Part shown: positions 2 to 17,639 of the stretch, piece after piece
How positions within the stretch are numbered: position 1 is the first letter of the stretch
Layout: every line of letters begins with the position of its first letter
From: a virus
IMG/VR virus record: IMGVR_UViG_3300021475_000001
Span: 1 to 64,000 of that record
DNA: 64,000 nucleotides
Direction: 5' to 3' (one strand)
Position numbers and translations under genes: made by a program
Notes under the pieces: generated by a model
What the model was told of the DNA's origin: nothing
What the model saw: the letters and a program-made list of their open reading frames with translations, nothing else
Database searches by the model: none

Positions 2-880
2 ACACTTGGGGATTTGATCAAGTCACTAAAGCTTGACCCCTCAATGACCAAGATGACGCCGGAAGTCCAGCAACAATTGGCGTCGGAACTCTACCGTCAG
101 CGTGGGTTCAACATGACGTGGGTCAATCCTGAAACCCGCGCAGGGAGAACACAAGCAGAATTTGAGCGGTTAAGACAAGCAGGCCAACTTTATAGTACCG
201 GTGGTGGTGCCTTACCCCCAGGTGACCAAACTCTGGTCAAGCAGTTACAGAGTGGCGTTCGAAACAAGCCGCTTGCCGAAGAATTGACCAAGCAACTGGC
301 TTACGCTGCAAAACAGGTTGGTGTGATCGCCGAGGTCGTTTCCGGCGGTCAGCCGGAAAGCGGCCCAAATCGTGTTGGCAGTCACCGTCACGATTTGGGT
401 CGTTCCGCCGATCTTAAACTACGTGACCCAAAGACTGGGCTTATACTGTCTATGAACAACCCGGAAGACCGGGCGCGTATGGAACAGTTTGTGCGCGAGT
501 CTGTCCATGCTGGTGCTACGGGTGTAGGTGCTGGTGTGGGTTATATGGGTCCGGAAACGATGCATATCGGTGGTGGTACTCCGGCTACTTGGGGAGGTGC
601 ATCGTGGATCAGGAGTGCTTGGGAGAAAGGTCGTGAGTTGGCGCGCACCGCCCCGATACGAGCGCAGCAAATGGAGGAAACAGTAAAGAAGGATAATCAG
701 ACTGGTCAGCGTGCGGCGGCTAACACTAATGAGAAACCACAACAGGTGGTTGATAACAGTGTCCATAATGTGAACATTCACGGTGTCACAAATCCGCATG
801 GTGTTCCGGCAGCATTGGAGCGGTTAGGTGACAGAAACACTGCCTACGGGCAGCGTAACGGAAGGACGATGGTCACATGA
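2..880 (+). CDS. Tail protein with M15-like peptidase domain (5' end outside window)
   Basis: The frame is open to the left edge, so the gene is cut by the window; the TTG at 14 is only the first possible start inside it. The middle of the protein has the pattern GSHRHDLGRSAD followed about 60 residues later by MHIGG, resembling the HxxGxxAD...H zinc site of M15-type D-Ala-D-Ala peptidases used by phages to cut peptidoglycan. The C-terminal tail (HNVNIHGVTNPHG) resembles the end of tape-measure or tail-lysozyme proteins. It overlaps the baseplate hub gene by ATGA. Inferred role: a virion-associated peptidoglycan hydrolase, possibly the C-terminal domain of the tape measure. Confidence 0.6.
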   Translation, partial: TLGDLIKSLKLDPSMTKMTPEVQQQLASELYRQRGFNMTWVNPETRAGRTQAEFERLRQAGQLYSTGGGALPPGDQTLVKQLQSGVRNKPLAEELTKQLAYAAKQVGVIAEVVSGGQPESGPNRVGSHRHDLGRSADLKLRDPKTGLILSMNNPEDRARMEQFVRESVHAGATGVGAGVGYMGPETMHIGGGTPATWGGASWIRSAWEKGRELARTAPIRAQQMEETVKKDNQTGQRAAANTNEKPQQVVDNSVHNVNIHGVTNPHGVPAALERLGDRNTAYGQRNGRTMVT

Positions 881-2364
881 GTGGCACAGATGGTAGCAAT
901 CTAGTCCCAGGTGGCGGAGCGGACCTTAGTAAGTTCAAGACACAAGGTACTGAACTGCAAACGTCTGATCAAGCCACAGCCAACAACTATGAGTATTTCC
1001 AGTCGAGTGACTTAAGCAAGCCATCAACTGAGAAGGAGAGTTGGCGTTCGCTGTCGGATAATATGGAGCCGTCACAAGGTTCCGGTTCTGGCCAAATTGA
1101 TCAAAAGTCACCAGACAAGAATGACGCACAGTGGCTGCGCGCGTTTAGTCTTATTGTATACTCACATAGTGTGACAAGTGGTGGGTCGGTTCCTATACCG
1201 CGACCGGCAAGCTTTGATCCAAACGCACCACCGCCAAAACCAAAATTTGGCAATGTGATTCCATTTCGTCGTACACCGCGTGGTGATCCGGTCGATCCAG
1301 TTACCGGAAACCCGATAACCCCTGATGATAGTGGCAATGCAGATTTTGGTGGCGGTAGCGATACACAGCAACCTGGTATCGACATCTCGAACCTGCGATG
1401 CAGTTTTAGTATTCAGAAGATTGTACTTAATACACCAAACATGCTTTACGCGCGTATCTACAATCTCGCCCCAGCAACACTGGCTAAAGTTATAGCGTTT
1501 ACCAGGGTGCAGGTTTACGCGGGTTACAAACATGCCAATTATGGGATGATCTTTGATGGTGAGGTGATACAGTACCGACGTGGTAAAGAGAACCCGGTGG
1601 ACACGTATCTGGAGATACATGCCGCTGATGGTGAGACAGCTTTAAACGGTACTGTGCAGTTTAAAACCTATCCGGCAGGAACAAAAGAACGACAGAAGCT
1701 GGACGATCTTAACGACAAGAAGAAGCAACTCGATCCGAGTTTTAAGGTTGAGCATATCGACGAGAATTTATACCAGGCTCAGTCACAACGTGATTCTGTT
1801 GTTGTGGGTCACTCACGTACTATTGAACGGCGAATTATGCTGGCTTCTGGGGCGCAGCATTTTCTAGATAACGGTAAATTTATTGCGATTACAAACGAAG
1901 GCTACCGCAAGACTGAAAAGGTGATTTTGTCACCGAGTACCGGATTGATTGGTTTGCCTGAAGTAACCCCGCAGGGTATTCAGGCGAAGTGTTTGTTGAA
2001 CCCGAAATTAATGCTGGGCGGTATTGTAAAGATTGACAGTAAACTCTTGTCCGCTGTGGCTTACACTCCTGGCAGTACATCAAAGGTCGATGCCAGCGGC
2101 AATGTTGTTGGCGGCGAGACTGGTGGTAAGGTATTTAATACTAACATGTGGCGACAGCAATTTGAGGCTGCGTATACGTCACCTATTGGTGAATATAAGA
2201 TACTTCTGATGACATACACGGGTGATACAAGAGGGAACCCTTGGTATTGTGATCTTATCTGTATTGCGATGGATAGTGACGGTAAGGCGATTCTTGGTAA
2301 TAACACATCCAATGCCTGGATGCGTGCATCACAACAAGCAAAAGAGGGTACTTTGGCAAAATAG
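877..2364 (+). CDS. Baseplate hub protein (gp27/Mu gp44-like)
   Basis: 495 aa. The first 170 residues are low-complexity, polar and proline-rich and contain DPVTGNPI. From about residue 170 a beta-rich region follows (SIQKIVLNTPNMLYARIYNL, then VYAGYKHANYGMIFDGEV), typical of phage hub proteins in which a barrel domain is described by phrases such as IFDGEV and a following LEIHAADGE. Its place, between a tail peptidase/tape-measure gene and the Dit-like and plug genes, is the normal hub position in simple contractile tails. The long disordered N-terminal region is unusual for the family. Assignment rests on pattern memory and gene order. Confidence 0.65.
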   Translation: MSGTDGSNLVPGGGADLSKFKTQGTELQTSDQATANNYEYFQSSDLSKPSTEKESWRSLSDNMEPSQGSGSGQIDQKSPDKNDAQWLRAFSLIVYSHSVTSGGSVPIPRPASFDPNAPPPKPKFGNVIPFRRTPRGDPVDPVTGNPITPDDSGNADFGGGSDTQQPGIDISNLRCSFSIQKIVLNTPNMLYARIYNLAPATLAKVIAFTRVQVYAGYKHANYGMIFDGEVIQYRRGKENPVDTYLEIHAADGETALNGTVQFKTYPAGTKERQKLDDLNDKKKQLDPSFKVEHIDENLYQAQSQRDSVVVGHSRTIERRIMLASGAQHFLDNGKFIAITNEGYRKTEKVILSPSTGLIGLPEVTPQGIQAKCLLNPKLMLGGIVKIDSKLLSAVAYTPGSTSKVDASGNVVGGETGGKVFNTNMWRQQFEAAYTSPIGEYKILLMTYTGDTRGNPWYCDLICIAMDSDGKAILGNNTSNAWMRASQQAKEGTLAK

Positions 2365-2377
2365 GAGGACTTGACTG

Positions 2378-3265
2378 GTGTCTGGTGGTGGCGGCGATTT
2401 TGGTGGCGGTGGTGACTTTGGCGGCAGCCCCGGAAGTGACTTTGGCGGCGGCGGTGATAATTTTGGCGGCGGTAGTGACACTCCCGGAAAAAGTAATGCG
2501 CAGCAGGGTACCAGTGCGCTTGAGTTTGGGAACTGGACCCCAGCATTCTTTATGCCCGCGCGTCGGTCAATTGGCGGTATTGTGGCACAAGTGACAATTG
2601 ACGAGCAGGCCAGTGATGACATTCAGATTACCGAGCATCCTGTTGAACAGGGAGCGCCGATAGCGGACCACGCATTTAAACGCCCATCGGTGGTGACTAT
2701 TCGCGCTGGTTGGACCCGACAATACGCTCGTGACCTAAGTGCAGAGAGTGGTGTTTATGGTTTGTTATTATCGTGGCAGGCTGCGTTGTTGCCGTTTGAT
2801 GTATCAACCGGCAAGCGTCACTACACCAATATGCTGATCGAACGGTTACAAGTTACCACTGATAATCACAGTGAGTTTGCGCTGATGGCGACGATCACCT
2901 GCCGTCAGGTGATCATTGTCAGTACCTCGACAACCACAGCAACGACATCATCGCCTAGTGACGGTTCTCAAGCGGACCCTTCTAAGACTGGAGGTGAGAA
3001 AAGTAGTGGTGATAAACCGGCGACACAAACTGGTACAGTATCACCTGATGCGGTTGATCCGGTGACCGGCAACCCACTCAATCCCTATACTGGACCACCA
3101 CTCGACCCAGTTACTGGTAATCCGATAACCAGTATTGATGGTCCAATGGACCCGGTTACCGGAAATCCGACTGCCAACGCTGTTAATACGAATATGGCAC
3201 AAAACGGTGCCGCGCCACCAAATAGTCCGCCGGTCGATCCAATCACATTTGAGAATCCGATCTGA
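2378..3265 (+). CDS. Dit-like baseplate/tail protein
   Basis: 295 aa from a GTG start with AGGAGG about 10 bases upstream. The N-terminus is a glycine/aspartate repeat region (GGGGDFGGGGDFGG type, about residues 3-35). The core (about 60-190) has ITEHPVEQGAPIADHA and TGKRHYTNMLIERL, hallmarks of the phage Dit-like N-terminal domain (family PF21821 as I remember it), which forms the ring joining tail tube to baseplate. The C-terminal 100 residues are Thr/Ser/Pro-rich with three DPVTGNP copies, a motif shared with the hub protein just upstream. The core assignment is good; the function of the tails is unknown. Confidence 0.7.
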   Translation: MSGGGGDFGGGGDFGGSPGSDFGGGGDNFGGGSDTPGKSNAQQGTSALEFGNWTPAFFMPARRSIGGIVAQVTIDEQASDDIQITEHPVEQGAPIADHAFKRPSVVTIRAGWTRQYARDLSAESGVYGLLLSWQAALLPFDVSTGKRHYTNMLIERLQVTTDNHSEFALMATITCRQVIIVSTSTTTATTSSPSDGSQADPSKTGGEKSSGDKPATQTGTVSPDAVDPVTGNPLNPYTGPPLDPVTGNPITSIDGPMDPVTGNPTANAVNTNMAQNGAAPPNSPPVDPITFENPI

Positions 3266-3594
3266 TGCCTACTATTTGGGAAATCCCTCTGTCACCACGC
3301 ACACAGAAGATGCGTGTCGATATTAGTGGTACTGTTTATACACTACACTTAAAATTTAACAGTGTCTGCAACACCTGGATTATGGATGTTAACGACAGCA
3401 ACGATTTTCCGGTATTGGAGGGTGTTCCGTTGGTCACTGGTAGTGACTTGTTTGGGCAATTTCGCTATCTGGGGATTGGCGGTGGGGTGCCAGTGATTGT
3501 GATGACTATCGGGCCGGGACGATCCCCCGATGAGATACCAAACTACGTGAACTTAGGTATTGATGGTCGTGTCTTCTTCAAGACATTGGTGTGA
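3265..3594 (+). CDS. Baseplate plug protein (Pam3 gp18-like)
   Basis: 109 aa, a single small domain. The order IWEIPLSP, a beta hairpin, W-x-MDV-x-D near residue 40, [18 protein letters not shown] near 55-75 and a short beta end matches the phage baseplate plug family (DUF6983, Pam3_gp18). That protein closes the tail channel under the hub in simple baseplates. The start overlaps the previous stop by one base (TGATG) and its stop overlaps the spike gene as GTGA, so the hub, Dit-like, plug and spike genes form one translationally coupled set. Confidence 0.75.
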
Positions 3595-6500
3595 CAATGG
3601 CTAGTGGCGGTACATTCGACCAGACTGAGCGGTTCTTCGATGCCGACGAATTATCGTACCAGCAACAGGGTGCGATGCGGGCAGATATGCATACTGCTTA
3701 CCCGGCTACGATTGACGAGCATCAGCCCAAAACTAATTCGGTGGCGGCGACACCCGCTGTCCAACTGAATGTGTTGGACCCGAAGTCCGGCAAAATGACG
3801 TGGACGACGATCCCGAGTGCCGGACACATGCCGCTGTTGATGCTTGGTGGTGGTGGAATGGCGATTACCATTCCGGTAGTTAAAGGTGATGAGGGACTGG
3901 TAATCTATTCGAGCCGCAATATTGATAACTGGTGGATGAAGGGTGGTCCGCAGCCGCAGTGGGACGCGCGGATGCACGATCTGAGTGATGGCTTTGTCAT
4001 TCCTGGCTTTCGGTCAACACCAAACATGCTGACAGATGTCAGTACCACAACCTGGCAGTTGCGCACAACTAAACCCGCTTCTCAAGGTGGTAGTCACCTC
4101 GAATTTAATCCTGCACATGGTCCCGCTGCACGGGCCGCTGGTCAACTACCGTCACTGACGATGACGATTGAGAGTGCGATCAGGATCAATTCGTTTGCTG
4201 GGAGTATTCTTCATGCAGCGGGTATACCGCTCCCCGATCCTTCTATAATCAATACCATTGGCAGTATCGTTCATGCTGCTGGTCACCTGCCAACAACACC
4301 CGCCGCCTTTGGGCAGATTATTCACACAGCACTGAATGATATCGCTCACTCAAGTCAACTCGGCAATATTTTGCATACAGCGGCAGCGACAATCGGACTT
4401 AAGGTAGGAAGCTCGACAGAAATCGCCAGTCGCGAGCCGTTTTTTCAGGCTGGTGTCTCGATCAATCTCAATTCACCCATCGTGCAGGTTTCAGCCGATT
4501 TAAAGGCTTATGGCAAAATCGACGCGAGTCTTGGTTTTTTTATCAACGGCGTACCAATTGGTGGCGGAGGTGGCGGAGGTGGCGGTGGCGGTAGTTCAAA
4601 TACTCCTGGTCCTGTGCCACCAACTACACCAGCAATTGGTGACTTTTGGTGGGACACGGTCGGGGGCCAACTCTATGTTTGGTACTCTGATCAGGATTCA
4701 TCACAGTGGGTTGCAGCGACCAACCAGACGGGTCCGATAGGACCAAAAGGCGATACCGGACCACCCAACGGCAATACGATCTGGAGTGGTACTGGAACAC
4801 CTGCGAATACCCTTGGGCAGAATGGTGACTTCTATATCAATACGACGACGCACGTCATCTACGGACCCAAGGCGGGTGGTGTATGGCCAAGTACCGGTAC
4901 TTCACTGATTGGTCCACCAGGGCCGCAGGGTATACAAGGTGCAACCGGACCCGCCGGACCCGCTTCGACAGTTCCAGGGCCAGCGGGACCAACTGGTCCT
5001 CCCGGTCCGCAAGGACCAGGTGGTTTTGAAGGTCCACCTGGTCCACAGGGACCGACTGGTGCTGCTAGTACAGTACCAGGACCACCTGGCGCGACAGGCG
5101 CGACTGGTGCAACAGGACCGATTGGACCCGCCTCGACAGTGCCGGGACCGCAGGGACCGCAGGGTGCAACTGGCGCGACCGGGCCGCAGGGACCGACCGG
5201 GACGACGGGCGCGGTTGGTCCGGGTGTTCCATCTGGTGGCACGTCTGGACAAGTTTTAGCAAAGATAGACGCCACCAATTACAACACGCAGTGGACGAAC
5301 CCGAGTGGTGGTGGGGCGAGTGTCACGATAAGTGATACTGCTCCCGCTTTGCCCGTAGTGGGGAATTTGTGGTGGAACTCCAGTCCTGGTGATGGACAAC
5401 TTTATATCTACTACACTGACCCAAATACCTCGCAGTGGGTCATCACCAATAATACCGGTGTAGGACCAATTGGGGCTACCGGACCAGCGGGTCCGACCGG
5501 ACCAGCCGGACCAGCCGGCAGCTATCAAGCTGGTTCAGGCATCGCCATCAACACCGGTACGACACCGCCGACGATCAGTACGGCGGTACCTTACCTTCCG
5601 CTGACGGCTGGCCCTACGGTTCCGCTTACCGGTAATCTGACGCTCTCCCCCGCTTCAGGCTATTCCGTACTGGCTCTGCGGACCACTGCGGGGAACCGTA
5701 ACGTGATTTACGGTTATATGGGGGCAAACGCCCGTTGGGAGATTGACTTAGGGACTGGGGGTACAGAAAGCGGTAGTAATGTTGCCAGCGATTTTGGCAT
5801 CGCTCGTTACAACGATGCGGGAACTTATATTGATTTCCCGCTGATGATCCAGCGTTCTTCAGGGGCGGTGACGGTTAGCGGTAACCTTTGGGCGAACGGA
5901 ACGACCTATATCGGCACCAGTGGATTGCTTTATTTCTACGACGCTCTCAGCGGCACGGTAGGAGTGAACGCTTCGACGGGGCTGCGGCTGAGCGGTACCG
6001 TCATCTATTTCGGCAACGCCACAGGTGGTCCTAACGGCGCGGGTGGCCCGATGGTCTACGCCGATGGCAACACGATGGTCTTCAAGCAGGGCACCCCCGG
6101 AACCAATGGCTACTGGTTTCAAAACTACGCCGGGGGAAATGTCGCGACGATAGCCAACAACGGCACCATCGCTTCAACATATGGTTATAACGCGCGATCC
6201 GGCACGCCCGGTCCCAACCAAGGAAACGTCTTTAATATCGATTGGAACGGCGGGGCACATCTGTGGATCGATAATGTCAACCAGGGCGTCATCTCAGTCA
6301 CCTGTGACTACCGGGTCAAGGATAACGTTGTTGAGCTTGCTTCGACCTGGGATGCGGTCAAAACGCTGCGACCCATTTCGTACACCATCAAGGGGCATGA
6401 GGATTTCCCTCATTATGAATCTGATCCCGCTGAGCGATGGGGGTTTCTTGCGCATGAGTTACAGGACTCGTTGCTGCCGACCGCCGCGACCGGGTACAAG

Positions 6501-6617
6501 GATGCGCCAAACCTCGTACAGTCACCCGATCTCTTGGCGTTGGTTGCATCGTTGACCCGCGCGCTGCAAGAGGCGATGGCACGGATCGAGGCGTTAGAGG
6601 CTCGCTATGCCGCTTGA
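3591..6617 (+). CDS. Central spike (Gp138_N) fused to collagen-like fibre with S74 chaperone domain
   Basis: 1008 aa from a GTG that overlaps the plug stop (GTGA); ATG 3597 is an alternative. Residues about 10-140 carry the Gp138 N-terminal spike domain ([17 protein letters not shown], then [13 protein letters not shown]). A poly-Gly tract lies near 323-336. Two GDFWWD/GNLWWN...SQWV modules and three collagen-like Gly-X-Y blocks (about 380-395, 440-544, 624-643) follow, then a fibre shaft and a C-terminal S74-type chaperone domain ending in LEARYAA. In the S74 site the usual Ser is Cys905, with Lys910 five residues later. Spikes of this family are usually a few hundred residues, so the fused fibre is unusual. 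Expected position: tip of the tail. Confidence 0.8.
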
Positions 6618-8940
6618 CTTTCCCAACAGCCCGACCCCCGGTCAAATCTTCACCAGTACCGGTGTTAGCTGGGTGTGGAACGGTACGACGTGGACGATGG
6701 GAAGCGGAGCCGGGTTCCTACCACTGACTGGCGGAACACTCTCGGGTCCGGGTAATTTGACAGTCAATGGGGCGATGGCGGTTAGCGGTGCCGGTATCAA
6801 ATACGGCGCGGCTGACACCTTCGCCTTTGTTTGGACCGGGTCGGTAACAAATCTTTGGGTCAACGGGACCAATACTGGCCCGCTTGCAGTTGGTAACTTC
6901 TTGCCGCTCTCGGGTGGCACTACCAGTGGCAACATAACAATTGCCCCCGCCAGCGGCTGGGCTGCGCTGGCTTTGAGCGCTTCCACAGGGAACCGCAACC
7001 AAGTCCTGGGATATATCGGCGGAAAAGCTCGTTGGGAAATCGACCTTGGGAATGCGGCTGCGGAAAGCACCGGAAACGCCGGGAGCGATTTCGGCATCGC
7101 GCGCTACAACGACGCGGGTGTCGGTATTGATTATCCACTGACGATTGTCCGTGCCACAGGCACGGTGACGGTCACCGGCCCGCTGACGCTGACTAGCGGT
7201 ACTAACACAACGATCAATTTCATCAACACGGTGCCGTCAAATACGGCAGGCGGTTTGTGGCGCGCCACCGTTGGGGCGGGTGGTAACTGGAACCTTCAAT
7301 CCAACACCGCAGTGGCGGGTGACTTTTCGACAAGCCAGCAGGCGGTCCAGACGACGCCCCTTGGCGCTGTGGCTATTGGCACTGCCGGGATGCCGTCAGA
7401 CGCGGTCGTAGGCACACTCATGTCGGCTTATCTAGTCACGTCAGGTGCCAGTGCGCTTTATAACAATGTCTACAATGCTACAGGTGGCGGTAAACTTTTG
7501 ACCAATGCCGCCGCGACCGCGTTCAATATGGGAAGCGGCGTGTTCTATTTTTACAACGCTCCCGCAGCGGCGGCGGGATCGGTCCCGGCGTGGAAGCAGC
7601 TAGCCTTTTTAGATGGAAATGGTAACTTAAGCACCACTGGCGCAATCGTATCAGGCAGCGGAGTCACGCTAGGCCAAGGCGGCGATCTTTTCTTAAGTCG
7701 TACTGACAATCCAGCAGGTTGGATCATCCGGCCAAATACCGCTGGATTGAAAAATCTCAACCTCGCGACGACAGGTGGCAATACTCTCGATACTGTCAGT
7801 ATAATTGCCGCTACAACGATTACCTCTGGTAACATCGTGATTCCCAATCAGACGTGGTTTCAGGGTAAGGATACCGCTGGTAATGGTGCAAACCTGCTAA
7901 CGATGTGGAGTGACAACAACTGTTATCTCTCCGAGGCAAGCCGTCCGTTGCACTGTCGCGGCTCGACCATTTCGATGGAAGGTGCAACCACTTTCAACAC
8001 AAGAGCCACTTTCAGTGACGGTTTCAATCTCTATGGAGGTACATTTTACAACGGTTACAGCAATGGCTGGCTCTATTTTAATGGCAGCCTTCGTGTTGTA
8101 AATTTTTATTCCGAAAACGATGTCAACTGTGCGGGTTCGCTCATCGTCAACGGGATGTATTGGCAGAACAATGGCGGGTGGATGTACTCCCCCAATGCGG
8201 TTCTATCCAACGGTGACGTTGCTGCGCAAGGCGTTCTCAGAGCCGGTGGTACGGGTGGTCCCTATTGGCAGAACAGCGGCGGTTGGATGTACACGCCGCA
8301 AAATCTTCTGACCGGCGGCGTCATCGCGGTTAGCGGTAATACCGGTGTCTTTTGGCAGTACAACAGTGGCTGTATGTACACGCCGAACAACCTCATTGTC
8401 GCTGGCGGTGTTGTCTATTACAGCAGTGATACTAGTTACTATATCCAGGCGTATGCCGGATATTTGTACACGCCAAAGGTTGTCCTAAATAACGGCATCC
8501 TTCCCAATTCAAACAACGCTGTAAGCGACGGCCTCACTGGCAATGCCTATGGTCAGGTGGCCGCGTACTGGTTCAACAACCCGTCATCGCGTGTCGAGAA
8601 GACCGATATCGCGACACTGCCGAATGGGGCGCTCGACAAGGTGATGGCACTCTCACCGCGCGTCTTTCACTGGAAAGAGGTGACTGACCCTGACGGCGTA
8701 CCTGTCTCCCCACAGGTTGTCCGCATTAGGGCCAAACTGCACAGCGGATTTGTTGCCGATGAGGTCGCCGCTACGCTGGGCGAAGATTTTGGCGGCTATG
8801 ACCGGGACGAAGAGGGTCGCGAGGGTATCTCTTACAACGAGCTAACCGCCGTGTTGTGGAAAGCCTGTCAGGAACTTTCTGCTAGTAACATGGCGCTGGC
8901 GGCGCGTGTTGAGGCACTAGAGGCTCGCTATGGCACTTAA
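6607..8940 (+). CDS. Tail fibre with S74 intramolecular chaperone domain
   Basis: 777 aa. It starts [19 protein letters not shown], a short module common at the start of phage fibre proteins, then long Gly/Thr/Asn-rich beta repeats. It ends in an S74 domain with Ser660...Lys665 (SSRVEK), the spacing expected of the self-cleaving Ser-Lys dyad, followed by SGFVADEVA and a coiled coil ending LEARYGT. The start lies inside the last codons of the spike-fibre gene. The segment [12 protein letters not shown] is shared with the upstream gene and the YWQN..GGWMY repeats with the downstream gene, so these fibres have exchanged or duplicated parts. Likely receptor binding. Confidence 0.85.
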
Positions 8941-10699
8941 CTTCCCAAACAGTCCGACCAACGGTCAGATGTTTAGTGACCCTACCGCAGGTGACACCTG
9001 GAAATGGGATGGCTCGAAGTGGGAAGCTTACTCCACTCCGGGTGCCTACACAGGACCGCCCGGTCCACAGGGTCCAGTGGGACCGCCCGGCCCACAGGGT
9101 CCACAAGGTGCGACCACCTACCAAGTCGGTCCCGGTCTTCGCATTGACACTACCACCACGCCGCAGACTATGGATGTTGTGACACCCTATCTGGCTTTAA
9201 CCGGCGGGCAGATGTCGGGGCAAATAAGCACACGTTCGTCAACGGGAGGAATTGCACAACCAAACCCAACAACGGGACTTATGGTCTACGGCGCGGGAGG
9301 CGCAGGTGATGCCGCATATATGGTGCTTCACCGACCCGGTTACTTTGCAGTGGCGTTTGGCCTCGATACCGACAACCAGCTTGCCTACGGTGGTTGGAGT
9401 CTAGGTTCCGGGCGACGTGTTCTTTGGGATACAAACAACTTTAACCCAGGCTCGTATCTACCACTCAGCGGCGGTTCCATATCTGGTGGCTTAACGACCA
9501 GTGGAGGTATTGTATCTAACGGCGGACAAATTGTTATCTATAACAGTAACACTGTTGGGTTCCACGTCCAGAATGCCAACGGTTCTTGGGTCAGAATGTA
9601 CGATGACGGTTCTCCTCACATTGAGGTTAGTGGTGGTACTCCGCTCTACATCAACTACAATACCGGCGCGCAGCTTTACACCGCCTCGATCAACTGCGCC
9701 GACTTCTTCTCGCGCGGTAACGTCAATACCAATGGAAATTACTGGTGCGGTGGCCAATACCTTTACTTGAGCGGTTCCGGCGGTGGCAATGTCAACGGCG
9801 CTGGTGGTCCGTTGATCTATGCTGACGGTAACTATTTTGTTCTCAAAATGGGGGGCAACAACTCCGGTTTTGCCTTCCGCCAGTACAACGCCACAACGCT
9901 TTTCACTATCGACGGCGGCGGGAACGCTGTCGCTCAAGGTTCTGTCCGTTCGGTCGGTGGCAACGCCATACTGCAATTTGATGATCGCACGGGCGGGTTC
10001 ACCTGGGGCTGGTACGGGTCCAGTAGCGCGGCGCGTCTCTGGTCGAGCGCTGATGGTGACCGGGTTACTATCGACCGGAGCGGCACTATTTATACTACCG
10101 GCGAAGTGCGCGGTGATCACAGTCTTGCTACAGTAGGCTATATCTGGATCAACGGTGTTCAGTGGTCGAACAATGGCGGGTGGATGTACACCCCCAACCC
10201 GCTTCTATCTAATAGTGACGTTGCCGCGCAAGGCGTTCTCAGAGCCGGTGGTACAGGCGGTCCCTATTGGCAGAGTCTGTCCGGTTATATGTATTGCAAC
10301 CACACTTTGCTGTGTGAGGGTATCCTTCCAAACAGCGACAATGCCGTGTCCTCCGGTCTTACCGGAAATGCTTGGGGACAATGTGCGGCTTACTGGTTTA
10401 ACAACCCTTCGTCACGTTCCGAAAAGGATGACATTGTACCTCTGTCATCTGGCGCGCTCGACCAAGTGTTAGCTTTGCGTCCAGTCACTTTTCTTTGGAA
10501 GCGTGGTGAGAACCGAAAACGACACAGCGGTTTTATCGCTGATGAGGTAGCCGCCGTCATGGGCGAGGATTTTGGCGGATACGAGAAAGACGAGAAGGGT
10601 CGCGAGGGAATTGCTTATCACGAACTAACCGCCGTGTTATGGAAGGCTTGCCAAGAAATGGCGGAACGCATAGCGAATCTGGAGGCACGTTTAGCATGA
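8930..10699 (+). CDS. Tail fibre with collagen block and S74 chaperone domain
   Basis: 589 aa. The same N-terminal module as the gene before (FPNSPTNGQMF..WKWDGSKW) is followed by a short collagen-like run ([18 protein letters not shown], about residues 43-60), beta-rich shaft, and a C-terminal S74 domain with Ser494...Lys499 (SSRSEK) and SGFIADEVA. The DNA from about 10172 to 10275 is very similar to 8168-8280 of the preceding fibre, showing recent duplication or recombination. The gene overlaps its neighbour by 11 bases upstream and the accessory gene by ATGA downstream. Likely a trimeric receptor-binding fibre. Confidence 0.85.
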   Translation: MALNFPNSPTNGQMFSDPTAGDTWKWDGSKWEAYSTPGAYTGPPGPQGPVGPPGPQGPQGATTYQVGPGLRIDTTTTPQTMDVVTPYLALTGGQMSGQISTRSSTGGIAQPNPTTGLMVYGAGGAGDAAYMVLHRPGYFAVAFGLDTDNQLAYGGWSLGSGRRVLWDTNNFNPGSYLPLSGGSISGGLTTSGGIVSNGGQIVIYNSNTVGFHVQNANGSWVRMYDDGSPHIEVSGGTPLYINYNTGAQLYTASINCADFFSRGNVNTNGNYWCGGQYLYLSGSGGGNVNGAGGPLIYADGNYFVLKMGGNNSGFAFRQYNATTLFTIDGGGNAVAQGSVRSVGGNAILQFDDRTGGFTWGWYGSSSAARLWSSADGDRVTIDRSGTIYTTGEVRGDHSLATVGYIWINGVQWSNNGGWMYTPNPLLSNSDVAAQGVLRAGGTGGPYWQSLSGYMYCNHTLLCEGILPNSDNAVSSGLTGNAWGQCAAYWFNNPSSRSEKDDIVPLSSGALDQVLALRPVTFLWKRGENRKRHSGFIADEVAAVMGEDFGGYEKDEKGREGIAYHELTAVLWKACQEMAERIANLEARLA

Positions 10700-13868: not shown

Positions 13869-15494
13869 ATGTCGGACCAGGATGTCGTAGGTCTAGCGAC
13901 TGCCGTAAATCTCGCGGGTAGGATCACTGCGAGAGGTGGGACACGCTTGGCTATAGCTCATGCTGCCGTAATTCTCGCAGGTGGTATTAGCGCGAAGAGT
14001 ACGGCACGCATAGCTATACCACGTGTTTCCGCAATTCTCGCGGGTCGTATCACCGCAAAGAGTACGACGCAGATAGCGGTTGCTCTGGTTCCGCCGCATC
14101 CTCTGTCACTAGCAGGTACTGTTTCTGGTCGTGCCAGTGCGCGGGTGCAGATGTTGCCTTGGGTTCTCTCGGGCACCATATACGCACAGGGTACGATACG
14201 TGGGAGGACACCACCTTATCTCTCGGGTACTATTCACGCACAGGGTACGATACGCGGGACGTTTCCACCTTATCTCGTAGGTAGAATTACCGCTCGGGGT
14301 CAGATACGGGGCGCGACACCACCTTATCTCTCGGGTAGGATTACCGCACGGAGTACGGCGCTAACACAACAGGCGGTGTTTACCCACCCGTTGGTTTATG
14401 GTCGTATTACCGCGAGTAGCCGGGTCAATCTTAATCAATCGTTTTTTACGACCCGGCTTTATGGCACTGTCACCGCAGCCAGCCACGGTTCACTTGCTGC
14501 GAGACTCTTACCATTAGTGGGTAGTATTACCGCGCGCAGCCGCGCGCAATTATATCAACAGCCTAATTTTGCTCTCAATCTTTTTGGTAGTATTGCTGCC
14601 AGTAGCAGTGCGAATTTCGGAACTGGTCCTTATTATGTCACGTATCTGTCGGGCCGGACCAGTAGTAGAACGCACCTACAAGGTTTGGTGTATCCCCGGT
14701 ACCAGTTGATCGGTAGTAAAGTCTTCGCGGCGTCGTCACTCAGTTTGTTGATCGCTGAAGTCGCTGAACCGTTACCGCCTTATCCACCACCGTTTTTGAC
14801 GCACACAACGAGTGACTATTTAAATTACATCACTTCTGAACATAACCAGAAACCGAAGTATATGGCGAGTGTCGGATTCGCGATTGATCCGGAAGTCGAG
14901 ATACAACAACTTGCCGCGGGCATAGCTGGATTGTTTGATCTAGACTATTGTGTTGGTGAACAAGAGGATTTCACTGGGGAGTGGATTGGTAAGTCACGGT
15001 GGATTGAGATACCTAATGTATTTTTTACCTGGGATTCTCAAGGTCAGGGCTGGAACGAAGCGAACTGGAAAGGTCCTGGTGACTCTGAAGACATGTTGCA
15101 GCAACTTGACGATTATCACTATCGTTTGTTGTTGTATGGGACAGTGATTGCTAATCATTGGAACGGATCGATCCCAACAGCTTACGAGGCGTGGGATACT
15201 CTGTTTCGCTACGCTGGATTGAAAGTCATCATTCAGGACTACGGTAACATGACCATGCTTTATGGTATGTTATCGGATGGGAATTTAGACCTTGTGCTTA
15301 CGTCACTATTTCTCAGTGGGCAGATGGATTTGCGTCCCGAAGGTGTCGAGTTGATCGCTTATGCTTTGCAAGCGGAACCTGGCATACCGTTTTTTGCTTG
15401 GGATTCGCATAGTGATGCGGTACAGGGTTGGGATAGTGGTTCGTGGGGGATTATGGTTCCTCCCGGTTCAGCATTCCCGCCTCTGTTACCTTAA
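13869..15494 (+). CDS. DUF2612 baseplate wedge protein with 14-repeat N-terminal extension
   Basis: 541 aa. From about residue 316 to the end it matches DUF2612 (DYLNYITSEHNQKPKYMASV, then GEWIGKSR, FFTWDSQGQGW, LLLYGTVIANHWNGS), a phage family that occupies the gp7-like wedge place after baseplate J. The first about 310 residues are something else: about fourteen imperfect repeats of 18-24 residues with consensus L-x-G-x-I-T-A-[RKS]-S, rich in Ala, Thr, Arg and Ser. They look like rungs of a beta-solenoid. I do not know this extension from the family. Inferred: an extended wedge or side fibre attachment. Confidence 0.75.
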   Translation: MSDQDVVGLATAVNLAGRITARGGTRLAIAHAAVILAGGISAKSTARIAIPRVSAILAGRITAKSTTQIAVALVPPHPLSLAGTVSGRASARVQMLPWVLSGTIYAQGTIRGRTPPYLSGTIHAQGTIRGTFPPYLVGRITARGQIRGATPPYLSGRITARSTALTQQAVFTHPLVYGRITASSRVNLNQSFFTTRLYGTVTAASHGSLAARLLPLVGSITARSRAQLYQQPNFALNLFGSIAASSSANFGTGPYYVTYLSGRTSSRTHLQGLVYPRYQLIGSKVFAASSLSLLIAEVAEPLPPYPPPFLTHTTSDYLNYITSEHNQKPKYMASVGFAIDPEVEIQQLAAGIAGLFDLDYCVGEQEDFTGEWIGKSRWIEIPNVFFTWDSQGQGWNEANWKGPGDSEDMLQQLDDYHYRLLLYGTVIANHWNGSIPTAYEAWDTLFRYAGLKVIIQDYGNMTMLYGMLSDGNLDLVLTSLFLSGQMDLRPEGVELIAYALQAEPGIPFFAWDSHSDAVQGWDSGSWGIMVPPGSAFPPLLP

Positions 15495-15512: not shown

Positions 15513-17639
15513 TTGGGTATGAGTGACACTTCGGCAGCGCCGGTAAACGGCACAAATGGCGGCGTCGTTTTGCCGTTCGATTTTCCTACCACCTTCACGC
15601 CGGCTGGTACTGACTTCAAACCGGTGGCGCTTGGTGTGGGAGCTAATCTCGAACCGTTGCCGACCTACTTTACTGATCCACTGCTACAAACTGGTAATCT
15701 ACCTGGGGTCGCGATTAGCGCGTTTAATAACCGCGCGCTGCGTCAGGGTACATTTGTTGCCAGTAGTCTGTGTTTGTGGATTAGTGACCAAACCCAAGTG
15801 TACGTGCCAGACGATGGGAACCAGATTAATTGGATGGGGCTATATAATCAGGCATTGGCTGATTTTATCTTGAGTGTTTTACCACCTGGTCCAAATCTCG
15901 GGGCTTACCTGCCATTGGCGGGTGGCACTATGGTCGGTAACATCCAATTCCAGACTGGTGTCAGCACGATTCTCGCGAACAACACTTGGTATTTTGGAAG
16001 AGACACCGGAGGACAAGCGCGCGGACTGATCGTCAAGGGTAGTGACAATAACATCTACATCAACGACGGTTCTTCGACCTATGTGTTCTTCCACGGCTCT
16101 CCGTCTGTTGACAACGGCGTGTCATGGGGTGGTAAAGACACTAGCGGCACCGAGCACGCGATTATCGGCCTGCTGAGTGACAATAACACCCATATCGCGA
16201 ACACCGCAGGGCCTGGACATATCTATATGGATTGTTCTAGCGGCGGCTCGGTCTGGACGAATAGCAACATCGTCATTCCCAACAATAATTGGTACTACGC
16301 CAGGGACACGGGCGGGACACCCCGCAATATTATCGGCATCAATAACGGCAACTCGCTCTTGGTCGGTGCCGGCGCGACCGGCACGACCGATATTTATGGT
16401 CCCGGAAACATCTACCTGCACAATACGACTGTTGCTTACGGTCAGTTCAATGTGAACGGTTACCTCTACAGTCAGGGAGGTGCGCGGTGCTACATCCCTG
16501 GTGGCAATGATCCGTTACAGATTTATGCCGATAACGGTTACTATTCGCGGCTGCACTACGTAATCGGCGGTCTGCGTGACTGGAGTGAAGGTGCGCTCTC
16601 CAACGGCACTTGGGCACTAGCTGATGAGAGCGCGCACGCGCTCCGTTTGCAAGTCGATTTTAATGGCACGCTGATCTGCTTCAATTCCCTTCAAGTGAAT
16701 GGTGGGGCAACAGTCAATGGCACCGTGAGCCTCGGTGGGCTGACCATACTCGGGGCGGGACAAGTCAATGGCGGTTTGACGGTCTACAACGGTATCAACG
16801 TGGCTAGCGGAGGACTAGGTGTAGCTGCTAATGGACAAATCAACGGTGGGTTGACGGTCTACAATGGGCTTAATGTCGCTAGCGGCAACGGCAATATCGC
16901 AGGTTCGCTGGTTGCGGGCGGGAACATTACTTGTAACAATACACTCTTTGTCAGTAACCAAGCCCAGGTGTGGAACCACCTCTATGTCATGACTGGTGAT
17001 CTTCATGTGCAGAACGGCGGCGCTTATTTTGCTGGTACTATAACGACACCGGTTCTTAATGGAGGTCAAGGTAATAACAACATTGTTATTACCGGTGGTG
17101 CGGTTGTGTACCCCGCAGGTGGCCAGCAAGATGCCCTCTGGATTAACGGTAACATTCAGTTCAACGGCTGGGAATTTCAAGGACCACAAGGTGGGACTAA
17201 CTTTTATGGTGGCATGATCGTCCAGGCTATGTCTGGTCAACTTGATTCACTGTGGGCTTATGGCAATATTAGAATCTTTAACGGTCGTGGATACCAACCG
17301 GGAGGCGGGTTTTGGTTAGATTCGTCGGATGCGCGTCTCAAAAAGGATATTGAACCATACACTCAAGGACTTGATGCGATCTGTAAACTGCGCCCGGTTT
17401 CTTATTGTTACAACGGATTAGGCAAAACGAAGGATGACGGTGTGCGTTATCACGGATTGGTGGCGCAGGATGTGCTGAAAGTCATGCCAGAGATGGTCTT
17501 TGAGGAAGAAGTTAGGCTCGACTCAAAAGATGACGGAGGCACCCCGTTTTATATGATGAACGCAACTGCGTTGACATATGCCCTAATCAACGCTGTGCAG
17601 GAACTAGCCGCGCAACTCGACGCTTTGAAAAGGAAGTAA
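15513..17639 (+). CDS. Tail fibre with canonical S74 chaperone domain
   Basis: 708 aa. SD GGGAAGGA precedes the start. The N-terminal 140 residues (PFDFPTTFTPAG..., QVYVPDDGNQINWMG) may attach the fibre. The shaft is Gly/Asn-rich with repeated NGGLTVYNG(I/L)NVASG units near residues 418-455. The C-terminal S74 domain has the canonical site SDARLK (Ser605, Lys610), then LRPVSYCYNG and HGLVAQDVLKVMPE, and a coiled coil. Self-cleavage after trimer folding is known for this domain family. It shares little with the other three S74 fibres outside that domain. Confidence 0.85.
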   Translation: MGMSDTSAAPVNGTNGGVVLPFDFPTTFTPAGTDFKPVALGVGANLEPLPTYFTDPLLQTGNLPGVAISAFNNRALRQGTFVASSLCLWISDQTQVYVPDDGNQINWMGLYNQALADFILSVLPPGPNLGAYLPLAGGTMVGNIQFQTGVSTILANNTWYFGRDTGGQARGLIVKGSDNNIYINDGSSTYVFFHGSPSVDNGVSWGGKDTSGTEHAIIGLLSDNNTHIANTAGPGHIYMDCSSGGSVWTNSNIVIPNNNWYYARDTGGTPRNIIGINNGNSLLVGAGATGTTDIYGPGNIYLHNTTVAYGQFNVNGYLYSQGGARCYIPGGNDPLQIYADNGYYSRLHYVIGGLRDWSEGALSNGTWALADESAHALRLQVDFNGTLICFNSLQVNGGATVNGTVSLGGLTILGAGQVNGGLTVYNGINVASGGLGVAANGQINGGLTVYNGLNVASGNGNIAGSLVAGGNITCNNTLFVSNQAQVWNHLYVMTGDLHVQNGGAYFAGTITTPVLNGGQGNNNIVITGGAVVYPAGGQQDALWINGNIQFNGWEFQGPQGGTNFYGGMIVQAMSGQLDSLWAYGNIRIFNGRGYQPGGGFWLDSSDARLKKDIEPYTQGLDAICKLRPVSYCYNGLGKTKDDGVRYHGLVAQDVLKVMPEMVFEEEVRLDSKDDGGTPFYMMNATALTYALINAVQELAAQLDALKRK

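Follow-up and report, generated by a model that had tools for sequence, protein, structure and literature searches.

A central phage tail spike continued into a collagen-like fibre, with a predicted S74-type chaperone carrying Cys at the nucleophile position

The window, a stretch of 64,000 nucleotides from the start of the 111,039-base IMG/VR record IMGVR_UViG_3300021475_000001, encodes baseplate proteins in the order hub, Dit, plug and then spike (Table 1). The spike gene is one uninterrupted frame of 1008 amino acids on the forward strand, with a GTG start at 3591 and its stop at 6617, and it overlaps the upstream plug gene (3265–3594) and the next fibre gene (from 6607) by a few bases each. 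Its product comprises a Gp138-type spike domain, collagen-like blocks, a fibre and a C-terminal S74 chaperone domain, in this order. A sequence-only reading of the window had proposed this continuation of a spike into a collagen-like fibre with an S74 chaperone, and the single frame, the PF18352 match, the G-X-Y runs and the PF13884 match all agree with it; the G-X-Y runs likewise bear out its count of three collagen-like blocks. Elsewhere the record encodes a tail sheath (phrog_205, E 2e-114), and the tail is therefore considered contractile. Together with this sheath, the hub, Dit-like and plug genes preceding the fusion gene identify its product as the spike at the centre of a contractile tail; adjacency to hub and plug genes in such a tail is a feature of Gp138-type spikes.

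Table 1. Features of the spike–fibre gene and its neighbours (window coordinates)
Feature	Positions	Strand	Evidence
Baseplate hub	877..2364	+	E217 gp41 hub PF22759 E 3e-12; phrog_196
Dit-like baseplate protein	2378..3265	+	PF21821 E 1.5e-29
Baseplate plug	3265..3594	+	Pam3 gp18 family PF22479 E 7e-18
Spike–fibre fusion gene, 1008 aa	3591..6617	+	Single open frame; same architecture in L091, L092, L094, L095, L096
Gp138-type spike N-terminal domain, aa 38–139	3702..4007	+	PF18352 E 9e-21; relatives' profile matches phi92 gp138 3pqi E 1e-14
Insertion of ~110 aa in spike stem, aa ~188–300, probably helical	4152..4490	+	Alignment; low-confidence model with helices
Tip replacement GFFINGVPI + poly-Gly, aa 315–335	4533..4595	+	Alignments: HxH tip here in short relatives; no HxH in protein
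Collagen-like block 1, aa 381–392	4731..4766	+	G-X-Y run
Collagen-like block 2, aa 441–545, interrupted	4911..5225	+	G-X-Y runs
Collagen-like block 3, aa 625–645	5463..5525	+	G-X-Y run
Fibre body, aa 646–904, last residue Thr904	5526..6302	+	Matches tail-fibre PHROGs; similar segments in other fibres
S74-type intramolecular chaperone with C-terminal helix	6303..6614	+	PF13884 28.3 bits; Foldseek to MYRF ICA 7dc3 E 2e-4
Cys905 codon TGT, replacing S74 Ser; predicted cut between 904 and 905	6303..6305	+	Cleavage inferred from homology
Lys910, +5 dyad partner	6318..6320	+	Lys at +5 in 152/152 domains
Second fibre, S74 with Ser660	6607..8940	+	PF13884 E 3e-6
Third fibre, S74 with Ser494	8930..10699	+	PF13884 E 6e-11
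Fourth fibre, S74 with Ser605	15513..17639	+	PF13884 E 5e-14

Several further observations concern the surrounding genes. In the two adjacent fibres at 6607–10699 some stretches are near-identical, among them [18 protein letters not shown], pointing to a fibre-gene duplication or to recombination between these genes. A DUF2612 baseplate protein (13869–15494) carries long N-terminal degenerate repeats, such as LSGxITARSTA, ahead of its known domain. The end of the record falls within a tape-measure frame (L263, 15030–17039) and the first position of the window lies shortly ahead of the hub gene, which is consistent with a circular genome cut at this point.

The N-terminal part of the fusion protein matches PF18352 with 74 bits against a cut-off of 26 in the Pfam scan; we take this family to be the Gp138 N-terminal domain (Gp138_N), as the title of PDB entry 3pqi ('gene product 138') indicates. 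A profile built from its spike relatives matches the solved spikes 3pqi (phi92 gp138), 7yfz and 8eon, with Pam3 gp20 and E217 gp43 among the matches. The structure model of the spike part, built from IMG/VR rows only, reached a low-confidence mean pLDDT of 56 and was left out of the fold search. The stem insertion is common to three clade members (the window, L004 and L091), and in another relative (L095, 5992–9264) a stretch of the stem matches DUF3383 (E 3e-12), which is odd within a spike. For the collagen-like part, the Pfam Collagen family (PF01391) scored 25.7 bits, slightly below its cut-off of 27.2, which is passed by the relatives L091, L092 and L094–L096.

In contractile phages, the apex of the spike is regarded as a metal-stabilised membrane drill. 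In the spikes of P2, phi92 and the R2 pyocin, iron is bound by HxH pairs (PMC6116203), such a pair likely binds iron in the Milano spike too (PMC10811340), and needle rigidity is thought to depend on this metal (PMC11821841). Short relatives of the window spike have compact ends with motifs such as HTHGGVQPGGGNTGxPN, and 74 of the 79 complete ones contain HxH, whereas the pair is found at the tip position in none of the nine long spikes, window included (Fisher p 2e-7 on the raw table, uncorrected for shared ancestry). The sole HxH among these nine lies inside the S74 domain of L094, and the 1008 residues of the window protein contain none. Alignments place FFxNGxPI(G)n of the long clade where the HxH tip of the short spikes stands, and the former tip position is aligned to [13 protein letters not shown]. 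As judged from its sequence, the fusion protein is thus classed as a tip-less homologue of the Gp138 N-terminal domain and not as a canonical piercing spike, and the tip replacement is read as the conversion of a needle into the root of a fibre.

Eight further IMG/VR contigs (L004, L091, L092 and L094–L098) share this spike base and likewise extend it far; they were recovered by a profile search of IMG/VR and the initial single-sequence search. Their spike frames span 452–1622 amino acids with collagen-like repeats, and the junction motif FFxNGxPI is common to the window and all eight. Gp138_N, Collagen and S74 occur together by Pfam in five (L091, L092, L094, L095, L096); in L004 and L097 little follows the collagen-like region before the stop, and the C-terminal domain of L098 is a different one that has no S74 motif. 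Given these differing ends, the C-terminal part of the long spikes is modular. Among 17 spikes of isolated phages or from other public phage records, the annotated genes encode 214–286 amino acids; the spike frame of Phage WC36-2, which is unannotated, measures 314 amino acids between stops and has an equally short tail. Two of the public-phage spikes (L087, 3965–4720; L088, 3923–4675) are annotated as translation initiation factor IF-2, likely in error. Matches of the C-terminus to Xanthomonas phages were set aside, since there they belong to a separate baseplate or fibre protein and hence not to a fusion. A tree of 91 spike domains unites the window, the eight long-tailed contigs and L093 in one starred set of ten, and constraining the nine long-tailed rows as one clade was not rejected (p-AU 0.78); the spike and S74 trees were built on 120–155 columns. 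L093 (929–1678), a close short relative, retains an HVH tip but runs on into an end resembling a coiled coil, and is a possible intermediate between needle and fibre. As far as the sequences indicate, the spike–fibre fusion is a clade trait which recurs in other environmental phages. No relevant description of a central fibre fused to a spike was found in the open-access literature searched.

At the C-terminus, the S74 domain was missed by the full-length Pfam scan but recovered when the last 155 amino acids were scanned alone (PF13884, 28.3 bits against a cut-off of 22). For this member the match is weak, and all 46 aligned members, the window included, match this profile. The domain model (pLDDT 82) shows a fold with a C-terminal helix, and Foldseek aligned it to the MYRF ICA domain (7dc3, E 2e-4) and more weakly to endoNF 3gw6 and to 3gud (prob 0.97 for the latter). 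Cys905 (TGT) is the only cysteine of the fusion protein and occupies position 0, where S74 domains have the catalytic Ser, while Lys is present at +5 (Lys910). The sequence-only reading had named this exchange and the Ser kept in the other three fibres of this phage, and both were confirmed (S660, S494, S605). Judged by profile and predicted fold, the domain is a homologue of the S74 chaperone domain and by definition not a serine peptidase.

A survey of this site covered the relatives found by similarity to the window domain, as distinct from the whole S74 family. Across all loci, 152 distinct domains carry Ser (134) or Cys (18) and nothing else, and Lys at +5 is invariant (152 of 152). The 18 Cys forms all fall within one 62-row clade (SH-aLRT 98%), where parsimony counts at least seven Ser/Cys changes and the starred branches alone force two. 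Because the first locus set had been seeded in part by a Cys-containing pattern, a second search from a site-free alignment and a DNA pattern control were added; the latter, anchored on the downstream motif DYRIKKDV, returned 40 Ser (TCN), 6 Cys (TGY) and 0 Ala (GCN) codons. The nine S74 domains of isolated phages all have Ser (Cys 0/9). The earlier reading had called for a comparison of relatives and had weighed its case against families in which Cys is common and its cleavage already described: within this subfamily Cys proved fairly common (18 of 62 tree rows), but no description of cleavage by a Cys-form S74 domain was found in the open-access literature searched. The nearest S74 relatives of the window domain are L005 and L006 (both Cys; L006 is a fragment) and L007 (Ser), and no spike domain was found in the proteins carrying them. 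The C-terminal module was therefore probably exchanged, and the Cys chaperone probably derives from a subfamily of ordinary tail fibres.

After trimer formation in endoNF, T5 pb1 and MYRF, the bond preceding the Ser is cut by this residue together with Lys at +5 (PMC4690869, PMC8326128, PMC3828593), and in MYRF the cleavage is abolished by S587A or K592A (PMC8326128). The residue preceding the predicted cut of the window protein is Thr904, and Thr is also found there in endoNF and T5 (PMC4690869, PMC3828593). The Arg on which endoNF and T5 rely at −14 is missing from both the window domain and its Ser relative L007; the MYRF stalk has no equivalent either, and MYRF does without it. The sequence-only reading had left two outcomes side by side, cleavage with Cys or a chaperone that stays attached. 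Since no residue other than Ser or Cys occurs at the site and Lys is always kept, the balance leans to the former: Cys905 does not resemble a dead site, and cleavage after Thr904 by Cys905 and Lys910 is probable.

In the other outcome, Cys905 would have switched the autoprotease off, and the retained chaperone would permanently cap the trimer at the fibre tip or act there as a receptor-binding head. In its favour, serine enzymes are often weakened by a change from Ser to Cys. T5 pb1 with the S1264A exchange folds into a trimer without being cut, and the structure of this form has been solved (PMC4690869). However, a dispensable cleavage predicts Ala, Gly or Thr at the nucleophile position together with drift of the Lys, neither of which occurs in the 152 domains, and Ala was likewise missing from the DNA-pattern matches against 40 Ser. 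The repeated switching between Ser and Cys suggests instead that the two are interchangeable, and loss of activity is accordingly regarded as unlikely, though the most serious of the alternatives.

Far less probable is a role of Cys905 mainly in disulfide crosslinking of the trimer, for which the disulfide-tied tail proteins of phage Milano offer a precedent (PMC10811340): each chain has a single Cys, placed exactly at the nucleophile position with Lys always at +5, and three equivalent sites related by a three-fold axis cannot all be paired with one another. The chance that the fusion itself is an artefact, either an assembly chimera or a lost stop or frameshift joining a short spike to a separate fibre gene, appears slighter still. 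The record is metagenomic and a run of seven T lies near the junction, but the same in-frame junction motif and the same order of Gp138, collagen and S74 recur in five other contigs, whose fibre ends differ, and the gene borders overlap on both sides of the fusion gene. A frameshift is unlikely in particular because the relatives carry FFxNGxPI in frame.

The explanation favored here, to which a probability of roughly 0.7 is assigned, is that a needle became a central fibre and that its trimerising chaperone probably uses a Cys/Lys dyad to cut between Thr904 and Cys905. In the contractile tail, the central spike would thereby have exchanged its piercing apex for a long trimeric fibre. Its sequence shows an N-terminal OB/stem region of Gp138 type, lacks the HxH tip, and continues with a Gly linker, collagen-like blocks, the fibre and an S74-type chaperone. 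Three chains would trimerise, with the S74 domain driving the folding of the fibre, after which Cys905, paired with Lys910, would attack the bond following Thr904 and release the chaperone, as in endoNF, T5 pb1 and MYRF. The mature spike would then reach out of the baseplate as a central, putative receptor-binding or anchoring fibre. More tentatively, and with the odds somewhat against it, an uncultivated contractile clade may have given up the metal-tipped needle for a collagen-like receptor-binding central fibre, and part of the S74 family may be a true Cys/Lys self-cleaving chaperone acting via a thioester, as inteins do.

If the needle has indeed been given up for a fibre, this clade must breach the envelope in another way. 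A contractile lineage in which a long fibre stands instead of the HxH motif permits a direct test of the need for the apex in entry. Furthermore, the alternation of Ser and Cys points to tolerance of a natural thiol nucleophile by the S74 autoprotease, which also occurs in the human myelin factor MYRF; this makes S74 chemistry testable by acyl shift and thioester trapping.

Compared with known systems, the window protein resembles the Gp138-type spikes phi92 gp138, Pam3 gp20 and E217 gp43 (PF18352) in its N-terminal OB/stem domain and its place in the baseplate gene order, but lacks the HxH tip and continues into a long fibre where these spikes end. With the S74/ICA domains of endoNF, T5 pb1 and MYRF (PF13884) it shares the C-terminal position, the predicted fold and the residues Asp+1, Arg+3 and Lys+5, and with endoNF and T5 also the Thr before the predicted cut, whereas its nucleophile position is Cys and theirs is Ser. 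Like ordinary collagen-containing phage tail fibres, it has collagen-like blocks followed by a long fibre; here, however, the fibre is borne by the central spike instead of being encoded by a separate fibre gene.
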